A stretch of DNA of 64,000 nucleotides from Hymenobacter lapidiphilus (lineage in GTDB: Bacteria; Bacteroidota; Bacteroidia; Cytophagales; Hymenobacteraceae): positions 1 to 64,000 of the forward strand of contig NZ_JABKAU010000007.1 of NCBI RefSeq assembly GCF_013377885.1, in the 5' to 3' direction. This document shows positions 4,795-63,697 of the stretch, piece by piece. Both the position numbers and the translations under genes were made by a program. A model generated the notes under the pieces. That model was not told the origin of the DNA. It did not search any database and worked only from the letters and a program-made list of their open reading frames with translations. How positions within the stretch are numbered: the stretch's first letter is position 1; each line of letters starts with the position of its first letter.

Positions 4795-4918
4795 TTGCGG
4801 AGGTCGGTGTAGGGGCGGGGCTTGTCCCCGCCCGCCGCCAGAACAATACGGGAACGGGCCGTTGTACAAATCCAACGGCGGGCGGGGACAAGCCCCGCCC
4901 CTACACCGACCTCCGCAA
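4795..4918. repeat. Family A inverted repeat, copy A2
   Basis: The arms TTGCGGAGGTCGGTG-TAGGGGCGGGGC and complement enclose a loop of about 35 bases. The outer 15 bases (TTGCGGAGGTCGGTG) are complementary across the hairpin but not shared with most other family A copies. It lies just beyond the 3' end of tamL. Confidence 0.9.
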
Positions 4919-24051: not shown

Positions 24052-24208
24052 CGCACGGTGTAGGGGCGGGGCTTAGCTTCGCTGTCCTTCGGTTGTCCCC
24101 GCCCGCCATTGAACGATTACAGCTGAACGATTAGCGTTGAAGCGGCGCAACCGGCGGGCGGGGACAACCGAAGGACAGCGAAGCTAAGCCCCGCCCCTAC
24201 ACCGTGCG
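24052..24208. repeat. Family A inverted repeat, copy A3 (longest arms)
   Basis: Each arm is about 55 bases: CGCACGGTG, then TAGGGGCGGGGCTTAGC, then TTCGCTGTCCTTCGGTTGTC, then CCCGCCCGCC, pairing almost perfectly. Weaker complementarity (TTACGCAGTC near 24020 with GACTGCGCAA near 24211) extends the stem outward. It lies between convergent genes. Confidence 0.92.
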
Positions 24209-34764: not shown

Positions 34765-34792
34765 GTTCTTTTTGCTCCGGAAAACCCATCAG

Positions 34793-35569
34793 ATGAACAT
34801 CATTTCTTACAATCTCAATGGCCTGCGCTCGGCCGTGAGCAAGGGCCTGGCCGACTGGGTGGCCACAGCCCGGCCCGACGTGCTGTGCGTGCAGGAAATA
34901 AAGGCCGGCCGCGAGCCGCTCGACGTAACGCCGCTCACCGATCTGGGCTACCACGCCTACCTGCACCCGGCCCGGAAGCCCGGCTACAGCGGCGTGGCCA
35001 TTTTCTCCAAGGAAAAGCCGCTGGCTGTAACCGAGGGCTGCGGGCAGGAGCTTTACGATACCGAAGGCCGGGTACTGCGGCTCGATTTTGAGCACTGCGC
35101 GGTGCTGAACACCTACATGCCCTCGGGCACCAGTGGGCCCGAGCGGCAGGCATTCAAGGTGGAGTGGTTACACTTTTTCCGACGCTACGTGGCCGGACTG
35201 CAAGCGGCCGGGGTGCCGCCGCTCGTTATTGCCGGCGACTTCAACTGCTGCCAGCGCGAGCTGGATCTGCACAACCCCAAGGCCAACCAGAAAAGCCCCG
35301 GCTTCACGCCCGAAGAGCGGCAGTGGTTCCAGGATTTTCTGGCCGACGGCTTCACCGACTCGTTCCGTCACCATCACGGCGACGCGCCGCAGCGCTACTC
35401 CTGGTGGAGCTACCGCGCCGGCTCGCGCGCCCGTAATGTCGGCTGGCGCCTCGACCACCTATTGGTCGACAACCGCCTCGTGCCCCATATCCGCCACGCC
35501 GACCTGCTACCCGACGTCATCCACTCCGACCATTGCCCGGCTTCTTTAACGCTGAGTAGCTGGCAGTAA
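34793..35569 (+). CDS. xth: Exodeoxyribonuclease III
   Basis: This is an ExoIII/APE-type endonuclease-exonuclease-phosphatase enzyme that cuts DNA at abasic sites and trims 3' ends during base-excision repair. The 258-residue protein shows MNIISYNLNGLRSA, VLCVQEIKAG (E35), NTYMPSG, VIAGDFNCCQRELDL, WRLDHLLVDNRL, and the closing HSDHCPASLTL with the catalytic histidine. All residues expected for metal and phosphate binding appear intact. The chosen ATG gives the canonical family start. Confidence 0.95.
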   Translation: MNIISYNLNGLRSAVSKGLADWVATARPDVLCVQEIKAGREPLDVTPLTDLGYHAYLHPARKPGYSGVAIFSKEKPLAVTEGCGQELYDTEGRVLRLDFEHCAVLNTYMPSGTSGPERQAFKVEWLHFFRRYVAGLQAAGVPPLVIAGDFNCCQRELDLHNPKANQKSPGFTPEERQWFQDFLADGFTDSFRHHHGDAPQRYSWWSYRAGSRARNVGWRLDHLLVDNRLVPHIRHADLLPDVIHSDHCPASLTLSSWQ

Positions 35570-35574
35570 GAATT

Positions 35575-35719
35575 CAGGTCACGCAGCACGATGTAGGGGC
35601 GGGGCTTGCCCCCGCCCGCCATTGAACGGAGCGCTTGAGGCACCAGTACGGCCGTCCAGCGACACCGCTCAACGGCGGGCGGGGGCAAGCCCCGCCCCTA
35701 TATCGTGCTGCGTGACCTG
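35575..35719. repeat. Family A inverted repeat, copy A4
   Basis: The central core TAGGGGCGGGGCTTGCCCCC is shared with the other copies. Outside it a private 18-base arm, CAGGTCACGCAGCACGAT, pairs with ATCGTGCTGCGTGACCTG. It lies between convergent genes. Confidence 0.93.
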
Positions 35720-35729
35720 GATGCTTTCC

Positions 35730-37025
35730 CTAAATCAAAATCATTTCCGCCACCTCGCGGCCCGAGGCTAGGGCGGCATTTAGCGAGGGGTAGGCGGCGT
35801 AGTCGCCGCAGCGGTAAAAGTGGGCACCGAGCCGGAGCGACTGGTGGGCGGGCTGGCCGGCGGGATATTCGGGTAGGGCGAAGGGCAGCTCGTAGGTGCG
35901 CAGGTGCGGCCAGCCGGCGGCTTCGGGGCCGAACCAGGCGGTCAGCTCTCGGCGCAGTTGGGCTGTCAGGCCGGCTTCCGAAAGACCATGCTCGCCGTGG
36001 GTGCTCACCGATACCAGCCGCTGCCCGGCCGGGGCGTAGGCCGGCGCCACATCCGACGGGAAGGCCACATTATGGGCCAGGCCGGTAGGCGAGGCGTTGA
36101 GGCGCAGCAGCTTATCAGGACGGCTGGTTGAAGCGGGAGCGGCGAAATAGGTGCAGGTAGTGCGCCGCCAGCGCAGGGCCGCGGGGGTCGAAACAAGCGC
36201 CTCGTCGGTGGCATTGGGCAGCAGGCGCGCCACCGCTTCGCCATCGACGGCTACTACAACACCGGCGGCCTCAATGGTTTCGCCGCTGGCCAGCCGGACA
36301 GTGAGGCCCTCCACGGCGGCTACCGGGCAATTCAGGCGCACGGTGCCGGTGGGCAGGCGGGCGGCCAGCTGCTCGGGTATCTGCTGCATGCCCAGGGCCG
36401 GCACCACGGCTTCGCCTTGCACAAACTGCTGAAACACGAACTCGAAGAAATTGGCTGCCGTGCTCAGGCTCCGGTCAAGGAACACGCCCCCGAAGAAGGG
36501 CCGGAAGAAGTTGTCGATGATTTGCTCACTCCAGCCGTAGTGGCGCAGAAAGTCGAGGGTGGTTTGCCTGTTAGTGGAGCTGCGACTTATAAGCTGCCCG
36601 CTGGTGTAGCCGTGTACGTGCTTCACCAAGCTCAGAATCCGCAGCTTGTCGGGCAGCGTGCCGATGCGCGAAGTGAGGGCCGAAAACGCAGCCATGGGCC
36701 GTTGCAGCGGGTTCTGCAGGGTCGTTTCCTTGCCGTCGGGCAATCGGATAACCGCTCCGGAGCGAAAGGCCTTCAGATCGAGGGCACCGTAGTCAATCAG
36801 CCGCTCGACCTCGGGGTAGCGCGTGAGCAGCACCTGGAACCCCCGGTCGAGGCGGAACCCTTCGGGCGTAATATCGGTCCGGACGCGGCCACCCACGGCG
36901 TCGGCGGCTTCGAGCAGCAGCACGGGCCGGCCGGCGCGGTGCAGGTAGTTGGCGCAGGCCAGCCCGGCCATGCCAGCCCCGATAACTATGGTGGGTAATT
37001 GGGCGGAAGAAGCAGTAGTCATCAT
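35730..37025 (-). CDS. FAD-dependent amine-oxidase-like oxidoreductase
   Basis: A 431-residue flavoprotein of the amine oxidase/protoporphyrinogen oxidase/phytoene desaturase superfamily. The dinucleotide motif is IVIGAGMAGLACANYLHRAG (glycines 16-21), followed by VGGRVRT at 44-50. A C-terminal FAD motif is seen in HFYRCGDYAAYPSLNAALASG. No neighbouring carotenoid or heme gene is present, so the substrate is unknown. Two adjacent ATGs form the start. Confidence 0.85.
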   Translation of the reverse strand: MMTTASSAQLPTIVIGAGMAGLACANYLHRAGRPVLLLEAADAVGGRVRTDITPEGFRLDRGFQVLLTRYPEVERLIDYGALDLKAFRSGAVIRLPDGKETTLQNPLQRPMAAFSALTSRIGTLPDKLRILSLVKHVHGYTSGQLISRSSTNRQTTLDFLRHYGWSEQIIDNFFRPFFGGVFLDRSLSTAANFFEFVFQQFVQGEAVVPALGMQQIPEQLAARLPTGTVRLNCPVAAVEGLTVRLASGETIEAAGVVVAVDGEAVARLLPNATDEALVSTPAALRWRRTTCTYFAAPASTSRPDKLLRLNASPTGLAHNVAFPSDVAPAYAPAGQRLVSVSTHGEHGLSEAGLTAQLRRELTAWFGPEAAGWPHLRTYELPFALPEYPAGQPAHQSLRLGAHFYRCGDYAAYPSLNAALASGREVAEMILI

Positions 37026-37090
37026 AGACCCAACAAACTGCAAACGCAGCGCGAAGGTTGTTTTTTGATAGAAGCCAAGACTTGAAAGGG

Positions 37091-37189
37091 ACGTCATTCA
37101 AAGCGAAGCGAAGAATCTCGCTCGTAAGCATTGCGCTACGGTAGTTCAATATTTGCGAGTGAGATTCTTCGCTTTGCTCTGAATGACGT
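37091..37189. repeat. Family D inverted repeat
   Basis: ACGTCATTCAAAGCGAAGCG-AAGAATCTCGCTCG pairs with CGAGTGAGATTCTTCGC-TTTGCTCTGAATGACGT. The same AGAATCTCGC core forms the outer arms of the nested element at 41.6 kb. Confidence 0.92.
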
Positions 37190-39418: not shown

Positions 39419-40942
39419 ATGCGCTTCCTGCTTCCGCTGCTGCTCCTGCTTTCGGCCCTGACCACAACGGTACTGCTGCCGGGCTGCGAGCCGAAGGAAG
39501 ACCTGATAACAACAGACAGCAGCGCGAAGCTGGAATTCTCGCTCGACACGGTGAAGTTCGATACGGTGTTTGTGGCCACCGGCACCGTTACCAAGCGCCT
39601 GTGGGTGTACAACCGCAATGCCCGGGCCGTGCGGGTGGCCGAAATCAGCCTGCCGAGCCGGCCGGCCGTAACCTACAGCCTGCTGATAAACGGCGACGCC
39701 GTTGCCAGCGCCCGCAACGTAGAAATCAGGGGAAAAGACAGCCTGCTGGTGCTGGTGCGGGCTACCGTTGACCCCACGCCGGCCGACGGCAAGCCGTTTC
39801 TGGTGGAAGACGACCTGCGCTTTGTAACCAACGGCAACGAGCAGGCCGTGAAAGTGCTCAGCTACGGCCAGAACGCTTACTTCCACGACAACGAAACCAT
39901 CACCTCTAGTACCGTCTGGAAAGCCGACAAGCCCCACGTGATTTACAATTCGGTGCTCGTGAAGCCGGGTGTTACACTCACCATTGCGGCCGGCGCACGC
40001 ATCTACTCGCACTTCCGCTCCTATCTGGTGATAGAGGGCCGCCTGTTGTGCAACCCCGATTATCAGCCTACCGGCCCCATCAAGCCTACCGACCCCAACA
40101 TCGTGCGCTTTTCGGGCGACCGGCGCGAGGCCGAGTACGCCGAGCGGCCCGGCCAGTGGGGCGGCATCGAGTTCGACCTGGGCAGCCAGGGCAACGTGGT
40201 GCGCTACACCGAACTAAAGAACAGCACGCTGGGCCTCTACCTCTACAACCCGTTTGATGAGCAGCCGCGCCCCCAAGTGCGGGTCGAGAATGTGGAGCTG
40301 CGCAATATATCCACCCTCAATAGCGGCCTGGGCTTCGATGGGGCCGCGCTGCTGAGCCTGAGCGGCGACCTGACGGTCAGCAACACGCTCATCAGCAACT
40401 GCGAGCAGTACGCGGTATACGCCGTGCAAAGCAGCCAGGTCCGGCTCGACTACTGCACCATCGCCAACTATAGCCTCGGCACCCGCGACCAGCCTTCGGT
40501 CCTTACTTCGCCCGAAGCGCCTTTCGCTTCCATTGGCGGCCGGCCGCTGCCCGTAGTTGCGCCACGTGGCCTCACGATACGCAACTCCATTATCTGGGGC
40601 AGCATCCGCGACGGGGAGGAGTTGGAGTTTGTGGCCGGTGAGCAGTACGCGGGCAGCATCAGCATCCGCAACAGCCTGCTCAAAACCAAGAAATACGATA
40701 ATACCGGGCCGCTGGGCCAACAGAAAAACGGTAACGTCCTCAACCCCGACGAGTTTGCCTCCCCCATCTTCAAAAGCACACCGTCGCGCTTCCGGGGTAC
40801 CGCGCTCAGCTTCGAGCTAGACACCCTCTCACCAGCCAGCAACCGCGCCCTGCCCCTACCGGGCCTCACCACTGACCTACTCAACCGCCCCCGCAACCCC
40901 AACACGCCTGATATGGGCGCCTATGAGCGGGTGAATCCTTAA
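39419..40942 (+). CDS. Beta-helix lipoprotein
   Basis: A 507-residue lipoprotein (VLLPGC, C23) made of an N-terminal beta-sandwich region (residues about 40-150) and a right-handed parallel beta-helix. The helix shows repeats such as GVTLTIAAGARIYSHFRSYL, NVVRYTELKNSTLGLYLYN, LTVSNTLISNCEQYAVYAVQ and LTIRNSIIWGSIRDGE. It ends PRNPNTPDMGAYER, a common end of such proteins. It has no sorting domain, so it is probably held at the outer membrane by lipid. A carbohydrate-binding or structural role is possible. The start is an ATG directly before the signal; the upstream frame reads through the B4 repeat. Confidence 0.8.
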   Translation: MRFLLPLLLLLSALTTTVLLPGCEPKEDLITTDSSAKLEFSLDTVKFDTVFVATGTVTKRLWVYNRNARAVRVAEISLPSRPAVTYSLLINGDAVASARNVEIRGKDSLLVLVRATVDPTPADGKPFLVEDDLRFVTNGNEQAVKVLSYGQNAYFHDNETITSSTVWKADKPHVIYNSVLVKPGVTLTIAAGARIYSHFRSYLVIEGRLLCNPDYQPTGPIKPTDPNIVRFSGDRREAEYAERPGQWGGIEFDLGSQGNVVRYTELKNSTLGLYLYNPFDEQPRPQVRVENVELRNISTLNSGLGFDGAALLSLSGDLTVSNTLISNCEQYAVYAVQSSQVRLDYCTIANYSLGTRDQPSVLTSPEAPFASIGGRPLPVVAPRGLTIRNSIIWGSIRDGEELEFVAGEQYAGSISIRNSLLKTKKYDNTGPLGQQKNGNVLNPDEFASPIFKSTPSRFRGTALSFELDTLSPASNRALPLPGLTTDLLNRPRNPNTPDMGAYERVNP

Positions 40943-40978: not shown

Positions 40979-41087
40979 GTAGGGGCGGGGCTTGTCCCCG
41001 CCCGCCGTTAGCACATGCTTTGCGGGGTCTCCTGACAGCTGTTCAATCCGTTGTTTAACGGCGGACGGGGACAAGCCCCGTCCCGAC
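40979..41087. repeat. Family A inverted repeat, copy A5 (degenerate)
   Basis: GTAGGGGCGGGGCTTGTCC...CCCGCCCGCCGTTA pairs with TAACGGCGGACGGGGACAAG-CCCCGTCCCGAC, with several mismatches in the right arm. It has no long private flank, unlike A2, A4 and A6. Confidence 0.85.
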
Positions 41088-41593: not shown

Positions 41594-41801
41594 AGAGCAT
41601 CATTCAGAGCGAAGCGAAGAATCTCGCGTGAATCGTCACAACGAAGCTGTTTAGGAAGTGCCAGGAATCAGTTAGGACGTCATGCTTCATCTGGCGTCCG
41701 CGCAGTCGAAGCATGACGTTCTTTTGACTTTCTAAACAGCTTCAACAGTTGTTGTTCAACCATTCACGCGAGATTCTTCGCTTCGCTCCGAATGATGCTC
41801 T
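41594..41801. repeat. Three-level nested inverted repeat (families D, C and B)
   Basis: The outer family D arms are AGAGCATCATTCAGAGCGAA-GCGAAGAATCTCGCGTGAAT and complement. Inside lie family C arms (41643-41743), GAAGCTGTTTAGGAAG... and complement. Inside these is a family B-like core (41677-41719), ACGTCATGCTTC...GAAGCATGACGT. It fills the convergent gap between yjbQ and the lipoprotein gene. Confidence 0.92.
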
Positions 41802-49194: not shown

Positions 49195-51300
49195 CTACCA
49201 GATTCTGGCGCGCTCCTGCTCTTTGCGGACCATTTTCGCGGGCTCCTTGCAGCCGAAGGCCTCGTAGAACTCGGGCATGTTCATGAGCGGGCCGTTGGTG
49301 CGGTACTGGGCCGGCGAGTGCGAGTCGGTGAGCACCTGCTGGCGCAGGTATTCGGGGCGGGCATTGGTGCGCCACACCTGCGCCCAGGCCAGGAAGAAGC
49401 GCTGCTCGGGCGTGAAGCCGTCGTAGCGGGGCGGCGGGGTGCTGCCGTATTTCTGCTTAAGCTGCTTTTCGAGGGCCGAGTAAGCCAGGGCCAGCCCGCC
49501 GAAATCGGCCAGGTTTTCGCCCATCGTCAGCTTGCCGTTCACAAACACCGAATCCAAAGGCGAGAAGGCCGAATACTGGGCACCCACCATGTCGGCGCGC
49601 TTCGTGAACTCCGTTGCGTCGTCCTTGGTCCACCAGTCGCGCAGGTTGCCCTGGGCGTCCGACTGGCGGCCCCGGTCGTCGAAACCGTGCGTGATTTCGT
49701 GGCCGATTACCGCGCCCATGCCGCCGTAGTTCACGGCATCATCGGCCTTGGGGTCGAAGAACGGGGGCTGCATGATGCCGGCCGGGAACACGATTTCGTT
49801 GAGCGAGGAGTTGTAGTAGGCATTCACCGTGGGCGGCGTCATGCCCCACACCGAGCGGTCGATGGGCTTGCCGTAGCGGCTCACGTTGTCCTTGCCCTCC
49901 CACTCGCGGGCGGCCAGCACGTTCTGCAGGTACGACTCGCGCGAGATATTCAGGGCCGAATAGTCCTTCCACTTATCCGGGTAGCCGATTTTCACCGTGA
50001 ACGAGGCCAGCTTCTTCAGGGCCTCCTCCTTGGTTACCGGGCTCATCCATTCCAGCCCGCGGATATGCTCGCCCATGGCCTCCTTGATGTTGGCCACCAT
50101 CTGCTGGGCCTTTACCTTGGTTTCGGGCTTGAACGCCTTGTCGACATACAGCTGCCCGAAGGCCTCGCCCAGCGAGCCGTCGGTGGCCCGCAGCATGCGC
50201 TTCCAACGCGGCTGCTGCTGCTTGGCCCCGCTCAGCACCTGCTGAAAGCGGAACTGCTCATCGACGTAGGCCTGGGGCAGCGCCGACGAAACCGACGATA
50301 CCAAGTGCCAGCGCAGGTAGGTTTTCCAATCCTGCAGCGGCTCCTGGGTCAGGGCCGCGTTGGCTTCTTTCAGGAACTCGGGCTGGCCCACAATCACCTC
50401 CTGGGCCGAAGCCAAGCTGAGGGCGGGCAGCATGGCGGGCAGGTTCAGGTTCGGGAACTGCTTGCTGGCCTCAGCCACGCTCATCTTGTTGTAGTTGGCG
50501 TAGGGGTCGCGCAGGGCTACGCGGTCTTTGCTGGCTTTGGCCAGGCGGGTTTCGATGCGCAACACCGTGGCGGCGTGCTTAGCGGCCTCGGCGGGCGTAT
50601 TGCCCAGCATTTTGAAGGTGTTGTTGAGGTACACCGTGTAGGCCGCCCGGATGGTTTTGGAGCGCGAATCGTCCTTCAGATAATAGTCGCGGTCGGGCAG
50701 ACTCAGGCCGCCCTGGCTGAGGTAGAGGGCGTATTCGTCGCTTTTCTTGCGGTCCTGCGACACGCCCAGGCCGAACACCGAGCGGGTTTGCAGCTGCTGG
50801 GCCCGCACCAAGCCCATCTGCAAATCCTTCAGGTTTTTGATTTTGTCGATGCGGTTCAGCTCGGGATTCAGGTACTTGAGGCCGGCCGTTTCGATGGTCG
50901 TTGAGTCCATGGCCGAGGCGTAGTAGTCGCCCACTTTCTGCAGGTTCGAGCCTTTTGTAGCGGCTGTATTGGCCGCCGACTCCTCCAGAATCTGGCGCAT
51001 CACGGCCTCGTTCTGGTTGATGAGCCCGTTCCAGGAGCTCCAGCGCGACTCGGCAGCCGGCACCGGGTTATTCTTCAGCCAGGTGCCCGAAGCATACTGA
51101 AAAAAGTCCTCGCAGGCTGAAACCGACGGATCGATATTAGCCGGGTCGAGGCCCACACCGGGCATGATGGGGCCGAGCTGCGGCGCAACGGCGGCGGCCG
51201 AGGTGCTGGCGGTAGTAGCCGGCGTGCTGGCCGCGCAGCCGCCCAAAGCCAGGCCGGCGGCAGTGCCTAGAGTAAGTAGTAGAGTCCGTTGTGGCGTCAT
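49195..51300 (-). CDS. M13-family metallopeptidase lipoprotein, copy 1
   Basis: A 701-residue neprilysin-like zinc endopeptidase (M13). It is a lipoprotein (LALGGC, C22), so it should be anchored at the outer membrane or periplasm. The zinc motif is GAVIGHEITHGFDDRGRQSD, with HEITH, and the third ligand lies in TMGENLADFGGLALAYSAL. The N-terminal segment DPSVSACEDFFQYASGTWLK and the NAYYNSSLNEIVFPAGIMQP loop are typical of M13. It is the closer of two paralogues; the gap to the other contains copy B5. Such enzymes break down peptides and may take part in nutrition. Confidence 0.95.
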   Translation of the reverse strand: MTPQRTLLLTLGTAAGLALGGCAASTPATTASTSAAAVAPQLGPIMPGVGLDPANIDPSVSACEDFFQYASGTWLKNNPVPAAESRWSSWNGLINQNEAVMRQILEESAANTAATKGSNLQKVGDYYASAMDSTTIETAGLKYLNPELNRIDKIKNLKDLQMGLVRAQQLQTRSVFGLGVSQDRKKSDEYALYLSQGGLSLPDRDYYLKDDSRSKTIRAAYTVYLNNTFKMLGNTPAEAAKHAATVLRIETRLAKASKDRVALRDPYANYNKMSVAEASKQFPNLNLPAMLPALSLASAQEVIVGQPEFLKEANAALTQEPLQDWKTYLRWHLVSSVSSALPQAYVDEQFRFQQVLSGAKQQQPRWKRMLRATDGSLGEAFGQLYVDKAFKPETKVKAQQMVANIKEAMGEHIRGLEWMSPVTKEEALKKLASFTVKIGYPDKWKDYSALNISRESYLQNVLAAREWEGKDNVSRYGKPIDRSVWGMTPPTVNAYYNSSLNEIVFPAGIMQPPFFDPKADDAVNYGGMGAVIGHEITHGFDDRGRQSDAQGNLRDWWTKDDATEFTKRADMVGAQYSAFSPLDSVFVNGKLTMGENLADFGGLALAYSALEKQLKQKYGSTPPPRYDGFTPEQRFFLAWAQVWRTNARPEYLRQQVLTDSHSPAQYRTNGPLMNMPEFYEAFGCKEPAKMVRKEQERARIW

Positions 51301-51481: not shown

Positions 51482-53596
51482 TTACCAGATCTTCGCCCGC
51501 TCGTCTTCGGCCCGCACCATTTTCTGGCCGGGCTGGCAGCCGAAGGCCTGGTAGAACTCGGGCATATTCATGAGGGGGCCGATGGTGCGGTACTGGCCGG
51601 GCGAGTGCGGGTCGGTGAGAATTTGCTGGCGCAGAGCTTCGGGGCGGATGTTGGTGCGCCGCAGTTGGGCCCAGCTCAGGAAAAACCGCTGCTCGGGCGT
51701 GAACCCGTCGATGAGCGGGCGCTGGCCCTTGCCGTAGGTCTTGTCGAGCTGCTTTTGGAGGGCGGCGTACACGATGGTCAGGCCCGCGAAGTCGGCCAGG
51801 TTTTCGCCCATGGTCAGCTTGCCGTTCACGTACACCGAATCCAAAGGCGAGAAGGCCGAGTACTGGGTACCCACGATGCCGGCGCGCTTGGTAAACTCGG
51901 CCGCGTCGGCCGGCGTCCACCAGTCGCGCAGGTTGCCCTGCGAGTCGTACTTGCGGCCCGAGTCGTCGAAGCCGTGCGTGATTTCGTGGCCCATTACGCC
52001 GCCGATGGCGCCGTAGTTCACCGCGTCATCGGCAGCGGGGTCGAAGAAGGGCGGTTGCAGGTAGCCGGCCGGAAACACGATTTCGTTCATCGGCGGGCTG
52101 TAGTAGGCATTGATGGTGGGCGGCGTCATGCCCCACTCGGTGCGGTCAATCGGCCCGCCGAACTTGCTCACGTTCTGCCGGAAGTTCCACTGCCGGGCGG
52201 CCAGCACGTTCTGCAGGTACGACTCGCGGCTGATGTTCAGGGCCGAATAGTCCTTCCACTTGTCGGGGTAGCCGATTTTCACCTGCAGCGCGGCCAGCTT
52301 TTTCAGGGCTTCCTGCTTGGTAGGCGCGCTCATCCAGGTGTTGGTTTGGATGTGCTCGGCCATGGATTCGCGGATGTTGGCCAGCATGTCCAGCGCTTTC
52401 TGCTTGGCGGCGGGCGGGAAGGCTTCATCCACGTACAGCTGCCCGAAGGCCTCGCCCAAGGTGTTATCGGTGGCGCTCAGCATGCGTTTCCAGCGCGTGG
52501 GCTGCTGCCGGGCCCCGCTCTGCACCTGCGCAAACCGGAAGGCCTCATCGCCAAACGCCTTGGGCAAAGCCGAGGTCAGCGACGATACCAGCTGCCAGTC
52601 GAGGTAGGTTTTGAGCTCAGCCACCGGCGTCTGCTTCAGCACGTTGCTCAGCTCCTGGAAGAACTCCGGCTGGCCCACGATTACCTCGGCGGCTGCGCCC
52701 AAACCATTGGTTTTCAGCAGCGTGGGCAGTCCCATATTAGGGAAGCGCTGGTTGGCTTCGGCCAGCGTCATCTTGTTGTAGCTGGCGTAGGGGTCGCGCA
52801 ATGAAACCCGGTCTTTGCTGGCCTGGGCCAAGCGGGTTTCGAGGCGCAATATGGCCTTGGCTTTAACAGCGGCGGCCGTTTCGCTCTCGCCCAACAGCTT
52901 AAACGTGTTGGTGAGGTACTGCACGTAGGCCGTGCGCACGGCCAGCGAGCGGGCGTCGCTCTTCAGGTAATAGTCACGGTCGGGCATGCTCAGGCCGCCC
53001 TGGCTCATGCTCACCACGTACTGGCTGCTGTTTTTGCGGTCGGGCGTTACGCCAGCCCGGAAGAATGCGCCGGTGCCCAGCGTCTGCTGGCGGGCAATTT
53101 CGGCGCGCACGCCGGCCAGGTCCCGGATGGCAGCAATGCGGGCCAATTCGGGCTTGAGGTACTTCAAACCGGCCTGTTCGAGGCCCGTCGAGTCCATGCC
53201 CGAGGCGTAGAAGTCGCCCACTTTCTGGCGGTTGCTACCCGGAGCAGCACTTCGGTCGGCGGCGGCGTCATCGAGCAGCTGGCGCAGGCGGGCCTGGGTG
53301 CGGTCATTCAGCAGGTTACGCGGGCCCCAGCTGGAGGCGTAGCCCGGCACCGGGTTGTTGCGCAGCCAGTTGCCGCCCGAAAACTGGAAAAAGTCCTCGC
53401 AGGGCTCCACCGAGCGGTCCACATCGGCCAGGTTGATGCTCCGGCCGGGGCCCAGGTCCTGGACGGCGGCGGCGGGCGTTGAGGCCGCGGGGGCGGCCTG
53501 GGTAACCGCGGCGGGCCGGGAGGTAGTGCAGCCAGCCAGCGCCAGCAGCAGGGCCGCCGCCGCCCCGGCCCGGTGAGGAGCGGAAAGGTTGTTCAT
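51482..53596 (-). CDS. M13-family metallopeptidase lipoprotein, copy 2
   Basis: A 704-residue paralogue of the downstream copy, with the same architecture: lipobox (ALAGC, C23), DRSVEPCEDFFQFSGGNWLR, the zinc motif GVMGHEITHGFDDSGRKYDS, and ENLADFAGLTIVYAAL. Long stretches are identical or nearly so in both (for example YPDKWKDYSALNISRESYLQ), which points to a tandem duplication. The N-terminal 40 residues and surface loops differ. Both zinc motifs are intact, so both should be active. Confidence 0.95.
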   Translation of the reverse strand: MNNLSAPHRAGAAAALLLALAGCTTSRPAAVTQAAPAASTPAAAVQDLGPGRSINLADVDRSVEPCEDFFQFSGGNWLRNNPVPGYASSWGPRNLLNDRTQARLRQLLDDAAADRSAAPGSNRQKVGDFYASGMDSTGLEQAGLKYLKPELARIAAIRDLAGVRAEIARQQTLGTGAFFRAGVTPDRKNSSQYVVSMSQGGLSMPDRDYYLKSDARSLAVRTAYVQYLTNTFKLLGESETAAAVKAKAILRLETRLAQASKDRVSLRDPYASYNKMTLAEANQRFPNMGLPTLLKTNGLGAAAEVIVGQPEFFQELSNVLKQTPVAELKTYLDWQLVSSLTSALPKAFGDEAFRFAQVQSGARQQPTRWKRMLSATDNTLGEAFGQLYVDEAFPPAAKQKALDMLANIRESMAEHIQTNTWMSAPTKQEALKKLAALQVKIGYPDKWKDYSALNISRESYLQNVLAARQWNFRQNVSKFGGPIDRTEWGMTPPTINAYYSPPMNEIVFPAGYLQPPFFDPAADDAVNYGAIGGVMGHEITHGFDDSGRKYDSQGNLRDWWTPADAAEFTKRAGIVGTQYSAFSPLDSVYVNGKLTMGENLADFAGLTIVYAALQKQLDKTYGKGQRPLIDGFTPEQRFFLSWAQLRRTNIRPEALRQQILTDPHSPGQYRTIGPLMNMPEFYQAFGCQPGQKMVRAEDERAKIW

Positions 53597-53650: not shown

Positions 53651-53736
53651 GCAATCCTTGGAAAAAGAACAGTCATTCAGAGCATGTTGCTCTAAGCGCA
53701 ACATGCTCTGAATGACCGTTCTTTTTCCAAGGCTGC
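53651..53736. repeat. Family F inverted repeat
   Basis: GCAATCCTTGGAAAAAGAAC-AGTCATTCAGAGCATGTTGC pairs with GCAACATGCTCTGAATGAC-CGTTCTTTTTCCAAGGCTGC. It lies between the OYE and M13 copy 2 genes. Confidence 0.92.
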
Positions 53737-60748: not shown

Positions 60749-60886
60749 GGAAGGTGAATGGTGAGGTGGTGTTTTGGGAGCCGGACTGCGTTATCTGGAC
60801 AGTTGCTGCGGAGAGCCTGATTTGCTGAAGCAAACCGGGCAATCTATCCCTAAACGTCAATTATCCAGCCAGTTACTTAATTTTTC

Positions 60887-61040
60887 GCAATAGGTCTATC
60901 AGCACGGTGTAGGGGCGGGGCTTGTCCCCGCCCGCCGCCCGAGCAATACGGTAAACGATTGTTGAAAGGTCCCTCAATGCTTCGTTCAACGGCGGGCGGG
61001 GGCAAGCCCCGCCCCTACACCGTGCTGATAGACCTGTTGC
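60887..61040. repeat. Family A inverted repeat, copy A6
   Basis: The core GTGTAGGGGCGGGGCTTG is flanked by a private arm of 23 bases, from 60887: GCAATAGGTCTATCAGCACG pairs with CGTGCTGATAGACCTGTTGC with one mismatch. Its right edge is followed by GCAATCTGGGTT, the same string that follows A2 at 4.9 kb. The 306-base gap 60749-61054 holds little else. Confidence 0.92.
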
Positions 61041-61054
61041 GCAATCTGGGTTGG

Positions 61055-63547: not shown

Positions 63548-63697
63548 GAAGCTGTTTAGGAAGTACCCTGAATCAATTAGAACGTCATGCTGAGCTTGCC
63601 GAAGCATCTCTACCGCTTCGCTGAATGACTGTAACGAAGCGGTAGAGATGCTTCGGCAAGCTCAGCATGACGTCCTTTTGACTTTCTAAACAGCTTC
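63548..63697. repeat. Family B inverted repeat B7 within family C arms
   Basis: Outer arms GAAGCTGTTTAGGAAG... and ...CTTTCTAAACAGCTTC (family C) enclose family B arms GTCATGCTGAGCTTGCCGA... and complement. It lies in the divergent gap 63450-63763, which carries no other clear element. Confidence 0.93.

Follow-up and report, generated by a model that had tools for sequence, protein, structure and literature searches.

The gap between two convergent genes of Hymenobacter lapidiphilus is filled by a hairpin, A4, whose arms continue to pair beyond the repeat core, which raises the question of where this additional paired sequence comes from. The window, i.e., the whole 64,000-nucleotide stretch of DNA analysed here, carries several such hairpins, and a first-pass annotation made from its letters alone had described their outer arms as private to each copy, proposing that the hairpins arise by local inverted duplication or by the copying of one arm over the other. 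The 18 perfectly paired bases reported for A4 beyond the core were recovered, with 35575-35592 pairing with 35702-35719, in the following arrangement:

34772..35569, plus strand: left convergent neighbour of A4, an Exo_endo_phos family protein
35568-35726: A4 hairpin, whole span, arms of 62 nt, 92% complementary, 35 nt apart
35568..35629, plus strand: left arm as paired, 62 nt, 92% complementary to the right arm
35575..35592, plus strand: left outer edge, 18 nt, CAGGTCACGCAGCACGAT; long-form REP-A edge CARRTTGCGNAG with 2 substitutions, 6 nt from GTAG
35593..35620, plus strand: left GTAG-tagged REP core, 28 nt
35621..35673: interval separating the two REP cores, with the unpaired centre at 35630-35664
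35665..35726, minus strand: right arm as paired
35674..35701, minus strand: right REP core, 28 nt, inverted, with ATAG as its head
35702..35719, minus strand: right outer edge, 18 nt, an exact inverted match of the left edge
35730..37097, minus strand: right convergent neighbour of A4, a flavin amine oxidase family protein

The REP-A family and its outer edges

A4 is a REPIN/BIME-like REP doublet, with two GTAG-tagged REPs, heads outward, around a spacer; we classified it as such because copies of the GTAG-headed core are found genome-wide and because a RAYT-like gene is flanked by REP-A pairs. The head motif (GTAGGGGCGGGGCTTG.., comprising the GTAG tag and a short GC-rich palindrome) was detected with at most 1 mismatch at 168 forward and 152 reverse sites of the 4.6-Mb assembly (controls, 0), and the core of each A4 arm reads, small variation aside, GTAGGGGCGGGGCTTG(T/C)CCCCGCCCGCC. 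A 552-kb portion (about 12% of the genome) contained 93 REP-A sites and 42 non-overlapping head-out pairs, i.e., inverted doublets with a spacer. Across named genomes, the extended exact motif was found in at least 74 stretches, 73 of which are named Hymenobacter among the matches listed; it also occurs in L191, a contig binned as an Acidobacteria MAG, through either mis-binning or transfer. A single Y1 transposase gene was found in the genome, scoring above the Pfam Y1_Tnp cut-off and, against NCBIfam REP_Tyr_transpos, 60.9 bits (E 1.2e-16), which is below the cut-off of 80. REP-A pairs are found on either side of this RAYT-like gene, no more than about 320 bp away, and since REPs flank it, the dispersed family of REP doublets is presumably moved by this putative transposase. 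The REP pair adjoining the gene (L001 990-1202) has a spacer made of tandem copies of a 14-bp unit, CATTGACCGGTTCC, and matched 17-nt edges of its own.

The window includes further REP-A pairs, along with a second hairpin family whose members mostly start with CGTCAT and occur as inverted pairs (hereafter CGTC-type). The 23-base, near-perfect extension previously noted for the A6 core was also borne out. The elements considered below, with A2 and A3 of the earlier annotation taken to be the pairs at 4795 and 24052, are:

4795..4918: A2, REP-A pair, arms of 43 nt, 100% paired, edge extension of 14 nt
24052..24208: A3, REP-A pair, arms of 56 nt, 100% paired, with extra loop sequence (about 20 nt) identical in both REPs
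40979..41087: REP-A pair with unmatched edges (extension 0), non-symmetrised, for comparison
53656..53732: CGTC-type hairpin with a 16-nt edge; 4 relatives have other edges at the same gap
60886..61041: A6, REP-A pair, 23-nt edges 96% paired; cores differ, T vs C at core position 17
63548-63697: MITE with TIRs GAAGCTGTTTAG/CTAAACAGCTTC and a short direct repeat (ATT or ATTGA), with a CGTC-type hairpin inside at 63582-63673

The arms of the MITE are element ends and not flank copies, and its site is empty in relatives G114 and G079. A related copy of this MITE is contained in the hairpin at 41594-41801. Separately, the neighbouring ~700-aa genes at 49195-51300 and 51482-53596 are tandem paralogues (DNA blocks at 74-81% identity, spacing 2287 nt).

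How private the outer edge is depends on the stringency of the search. The exact A4 18-mer occurs twice in the assembly, both times as an arm of A4, and up to 3 mismatches yield 15 sites versus 2 in the control; besides the two A4 edges, the only near-matches known as REP edges are C89:114642 and 114747. A degenerate form of the edge, CARRTTGCGNAG, was found with at most 2 substitutions in the first 60 nt upstream from GTAG at 19 of 92 REP sites, compared to 1/92 in the adjoining 60 nt further out and 1.7 in shuffles, and with at most 3 substitutions at 36 sites, compared to 17 and 14, respectively. The better matches sit 6 or about 18 nt from GTAG, and REP sites are conserved at most of positions -8 to -1 upstream of it. 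Both A4 arms fit this long form with 2 substitutions, the A2 arms with 0 (right) and 3 (left), and the right arm of A6 with 1. The A4 arm is hence a long-form REP edge that has diverged, and its exact spelling is common to the two A4 arms only. For A2, the supposed privacy does not hold, as its GGAGGTCGGT edge was found again at another locus, in G087, and other hairpins of the genus bear apparently locus-specific arms of up to 48 nt. Overall, the first-pass annotation was right that the edges are complementary, which they are beyond chance, and the exact A4 spelling is confined to its own arms; its statement that such edges are not shared with other copies was not confirmed, given the 19 of 92 sites with the long form.

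By eye, the convergent gap of A4 holds REP-A in G000, half a REP in G079, CGTC-type pairs instead in G114, G087, and G003, and REP-free palindromes in several other relatives, with no clean empty site among the 21 relatives inspected at the gap. The changed 3' end of the left gene is common to G000 and G079, which suggests gap exchange between species.

Edges, cores, and spacers within pairs

We compared the two arms of the 42 REP-A pairs from the 552 kb with a null obtained by permuting right edges among loci (5000 permutations). Outward edge pairing summed to 380, compared to 158 when permuted, and pairing past 9 nt to 124, compared to 8.7, with no permutation reaching either observed value; the excess persisted among the 24 pairs in which one or both arms bear the long-form motif (60 vs 8.8; 0/5000). 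Edges of at least 12 nt were present in 13 REP-A pairs. Mismatches within pairs amounted to 62 over the six-nt edge, versus 102 permuted (0/5000), and to 74 over the 28-nt core, versus 91 (52/5000), i.e., a weak likeness. The base at core position 17 agreed in 24 of 37 pairs (13 disagreements vs 18 expected; 225/5000), and core mismatches averaged 1.0 in long-edge pairs versus 2.1. On the inner side, no excess of flank matching was detected among 41 pairs (104 vs 161 permuted) because the spacer is asymmetric; these inner spacers are family-like, and the REP-A pair accordingly looks like an asymmetric unit. Since an inverted duplication of an arm would yield a symmetric inside, these pairs do not appear to have formed in this way, and local inverted duplication, as originally proposed, is not supported for REP-A, in which the two cores also often differ.

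The same contrast was obtained from an exact-pattern scan of nine other Hymenobacter record sets (73 pairs among the matches listed; the records overlap G079), from which L191 (the Acidobacteria MAG), L216 (a Hymenobacter MAG), pairs near locus ends, and duplicate pairs had been left out. Among these listed pairs, edges past 9 nt summed to 104 versus 29.6 (0/3000), core mismatches to 126 versus 144.5 (22/3000), and inner pairing to 171 versus 265 (69 pairs), and several of the longest edges bear the long-form motif.

For CGTC-type hairpins, 88 pairs were picked by core motif alone, disregarding pairing. Their edges matched as well (436 vs 163; 0/3000), reaching at least 10 nt in 14 of 88 pairs (1.9 expected), and several (27, 23, 22, and 15 nt) match perfectly and then end abruptly. 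These long edges look unrelated to one another save for the last few bases. The cores were also concordant within pairs (identity 0.847 vs 0.466), as was the inner side (554 vs 337; 68 pairs), hence matching confined to the edges characterises REP-A pairs. Across the 1.18 Mb scanned, edges were longest in G079, at 48 nt within 98-nt arms. Two loci of G001 (40268-40414 and 134563-134719) have similar arms of more than 30 nt, which indicates that some long arms travel with the element; these arms are element ends and not flank copies. One orthologous gap contains REP-free palindromes in three relatives (G079:41598-41688, G003:26460-26556, and G001:48359-48450), with arms of 25-41 nt that are 97-100% paired; these are made of simple units, and their sequence differs in each species.

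Next, we considered how paired positions change between species, using the five relatives syntenic with the contig of the window (86-90.5% identity). Hairpins were chosen in one species and read by alignment in the other. Across 179 comparisons of 90 palindromes, 261 coupled pair changes were observed versus 27.5 expected, and with one relative per palindrome there were 85 versus 8.7, alongside 314 single changes; coupled change at paired positions is thus 9 to 10 times as frequent as independence predicts. Outside the core, 18 coupled changes were counted among 365 ungapped pairs, compared to a calculated expectation of 4.7, which is a smaller excess than in the core. Coupled changes in the core could alternatively come from replacement of a whole hairpin by another family copy. 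When the set was restricted to 78 palindromes by stricter criteria, transversions, which therefore did not pass through G-U pairs, made up 39 of 71 coupled changes, whereas single changes in that set comprised 132 transitions and 91 transversions (transitions 132/223 vs 32/71 among coupled changes, p 0.04).

Two other analyses of orthologous hairpins were not retained. An arm test on four rows, for which the hairpin had to be a palindrome in both species, returned 1741 concerted versus 21 orthologous columns in 125 comparisons, and was set aside as it is biased by this choice, counts gaps, and includes replaced hairpins. Spacer orientation in 226 comparisons (15 inverted, 28 in the same orientation, 22 ambiguous, and 161 unrelated) was not taken as proof of template switching, as such counts could also be produced by independent insertions of opposite orientation. 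Taken together, REP-A pairs display edge matching without inner matching, and paired positions of orthologous hairpins display coupled change.

Direction of copying at individual loci

The first-pass annotation had anticipated that, under inverted copying, relatives lacking a hairpin would retain only one of its private flanks. Edges were one-sided at A4 (in G079), A2 (in G114), and C27:43769, and no locus was fully polarised. At A4, G079 keeps the left edge (0.76, p 0.002) and not the right one (0.64, p 0.218), with half a REP and no right arm, and neither edge aligns in G114, G087, G003, or G001. At A2, the core is absent from G114, where the right edge alone aligns (0.79, p 0.002; left 0.71, p 0.118); in G079 the left edge aligns (p 0.002) and the right one nearly does (p 0.064). 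Neither A6 edge was found in 3 relatives, and the CGTC-type hairpin at 53656 retains the left edge only in comparison with G003 and the right edge only in comparison with G079. Several of the 18 hairpins picked by hand (one of them without a relative) had both sides or neither aligned. Given that A4 and A2 edges are partly REP sequence and that doublet loss is known, the one-sidedness of these two loci may fit copying but also deletion, and for the same reasons A2 in G114 and A4 in G079 were rejected as pre-insertion sites. A similar ambiguity affects C89:114644, which is one-edged in G058, where the pair is missing; REP-A pairs occupy this gap in both G079 and G087, so that the G058 site can result from deletion.

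The best locus for direction is C27:43769, for which the alignments are suggestive. Its left edge is conserved on the left in all three relatives, G079, G114, and G087 (p 0.001 each), its right edge is conserved on the right in none of the three (p 0.45-0.82), and the right edge of this genome, like its left one, matches the left flank of the relatives (p 0.001). The spacer is also present in G079 (by eye), and G114 lacks the right flank over 65 nt. In G079, the two edges mismatch each other (p 0.85), and the right one resembles a copy of the end of its own spacer. In G087, the right edge is weakly similar, with gaps, to the right edge of this genome (p 0.043) and to its own left edge (p 0.036), hence the matched edges might be older. 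Because of this weak match and of the apparently overwritten right edge in G079, we did not retain C27:43769 as a clean polarised case, and deletion or later overwriting could explain it. The right REP of the G079 orthologue (L102, G079:C104, about 105.5 kb) has matched arms of its own, CAATGGCG/CGCCATTG, which are short and resemble copies of the end of the spacer.

Other loci were mixed, and C34:19668 and C89:114644 did not bear on the direction of copying. At C37:15656, the right edge only aligned with G114 (p 0.001 vs 0.116), left homology stopping 374 nt away, and neither edge aligned in G079. C27:112846 aligned on the right only in G114 and on both sides in G079, and C27:77231 was rejected as a polarised case, as both sides align in two of three relatives and the left only in the third. 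The first-pass annotation would have abandoned the idea if both flanks occurred in relatives without the core; this pattern was seen once, at C34:109326 in G087, and we read it as loss of the core since the residue keeps the conserved REP edge. An automated one-arm test (304 tests, 100 palindromes) returned both sides in 106 tests, neither in 140, and one side in 58, and was set aside, its outer arms being mostly REP core and not private sequence. Overall, a direction of copying is suggested at single loci.

Candidate explanations and known systems

These observations are best accommodated if the matched outer arms are a secondary product, one flank having been copied in inverted form over the other with the REP-REP hairpin as seed, which we consider probable. 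Specifically, the doublet would become single-stranded during replication and the two REP cores would pair; a nascent 3' end that has copied through one core could then fold back and anneal to the other core of its own strand, copy the flank outside the second core, and return to the template. The outside of one arm would thereby be overwritten by, or receive as an insertion, an inverted copy of the outside of the other arm, and the stem would grow outward as cores and inner spacer stay different. The REP-A pattern is the one that would be expected from quasipalindrome template switching if the REP-REP hairpin primes the switch, and we infer template switching during replication as the copying process and as the source of A4's own 18 nt. 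The proposal of the first-pass annotation that one arm is copied over the other is thus supported for the outer flank of REP-A pairs, by edges that match within pairs and hardly between them and by coupled change, with a direction that is suggestive.

The alternative that we take most seriously, at somewhat short of even credence, is that the edges are part of a mobile element (a long-form REP or a larger TIR element) inherited whole, with divergent copies looking private. The long-form edge at 19 of 92 sites, with its better matches 6 or about 18 nt from GTAG, points in this direction, as do the recurrence of A2's edge at another locus and the MITE-like units that own matched arms elsewhere (63548-63697, and G001 40268 and 134563). 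Part of the A4 edge is family sequence, so the mere meeting of two long-form REPs could account for it. However, edges match far more within pairs than between them, including in the long-form subset (60 vs 8.8), the cores of the same pairs do not match with such strength, and long CGTC-type edges look mutually unrelated save for their last few bases. A different order of events, in which a REP pair inserted into the loop of a pre-existing hairpin such as a terminator, would make both flanks older than the core. We consider this unlikely: C34:109326, with both edges and no core in G087, and the REP-free long-arm hairpins occupying the same gap in relatives (with arms of 41 nt at G079:41598, for instance) are compatible with it, but the G087 residue, in which conserved REP edge bases survive, looks like the result of core loss, REP sequence is conserved at most edge positions between -8 and -1, and some relatives have one edge only at C27:43769, A4, and A2, with the reservations about deletion and overwriting given above.

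Selection for pairing, e.g., in a bidirectional terminator or mRNA 3' end, could also restore complementarity base by base. The location of A4 between convergent genes, the frequency of coupled changes, and the relative conservation of inverted-repeat arms near terminators (reported in the portion of PMC13155455 available to us) would fit such a process. Yet it would be expected to favour the stem near the loop, whereas REP-A pairs are matched far outside and not inside; arms reach 98 nt, and 39 of 71 coupled changes are transversions when single changes are richer in transitions (p 0.04), all of which makes this explanation quite unlikely. Finally, local inverted duplication of one whole arm, i.e., flank and REP together, would account for A4 arms that are near identical over 62 nt and for CGTC-type pairs that are alike in core and inner side too. 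For the REP-A class it is contradicted by the inner-flank test and we rejected it there, as spacers are asymmetric and cores differ within pairs even next to the 23-nt edges of A6, and as the origin of the hairpin it is very improbable, though it may apply to CGTC-type pairs.

Beyond the matched arms themselves, seeded copying can be extended into a wider and more doubtful reading, which we hold tentatively: dispersed REP doublets would seed replication turn-round, private stems would grow outward, and much of the paired, fast-changing sequence of convergent gaps in Hymenobacter would be written in this way rather than by selection or insertion. If REP doublets do act as seeds, the stem edge would record the direction and number of copying events. 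Three things usually lumped in REP hairpins are set apart here, namely an asymmetric unit, a shared core, and an outside seemingly symmetrised afterwards. Long perfect stems at the ends of bacterial genes, otherwise credited to selection, could on this view have a mutational origin, and the seeded hairpins, hundreds in each genome, would provide a natural test set for measuring template switching. A caution also follows: private flanks that match are not to be equated with transposon terminal inverted repeats without further tests.

The REP-A doublets resemble REPIN/BIME and RAYT systems (PMC3116915, PMC3733652, as far as their available text goes) in the GTAG tag, the hundreds of copies, the inverted doublets, the location between convergent genes, and the Y1 transposase gene flanked by REPs. 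In the accessible part of PMC3116915, REPIN excision is reported, singlets are called doublet remnants, and compensatory changes inside the REPIN hairpin are noted; locus-specific matched flanks outside the doublet were not found described in the available sections of either paper. The CGTCAT hairpins of the window resemble the CGTC-tagged REPs of PMC3733652 (in the sections at hand) in tag and in forming inverted pairs, and differ in that some CGTC-type pairs here also have apparently locus-specific edges. Regarding the copying process, the E. coli quasipalindrome mutation described in the available text of PMC7202029 involves a polymerase templating on the nascent strand, through which inverted repeats become more perfect. 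One arm is likewise overwritten by the complement of the other, but that work relied on reporters and mutation hotspots, whereas here the process is inferred from many REP hairpins and the stem extends into the flank. Template switching also creates and maintains RNA hairpins (PMC8794818), and arm homogenisation with spacer inversion has been described in yeast (PMC8604942), both as given in the accessible portions of these papers. Reverse-complement copies, perfect stems, and multi-base coupled changes are common to these systems and ours; spacer inversion is a known product there and only suggestive here, and they concern RNA genes and yeast coding DNA, as opposed to bacterial REP elements. 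A limited search of the open literature returned no earlier description of REPs seeding template switching or of its genome-wide footprint. Overall, the kind of process is known, and its proposed seeding by REPs and genome-wide setting would be new.
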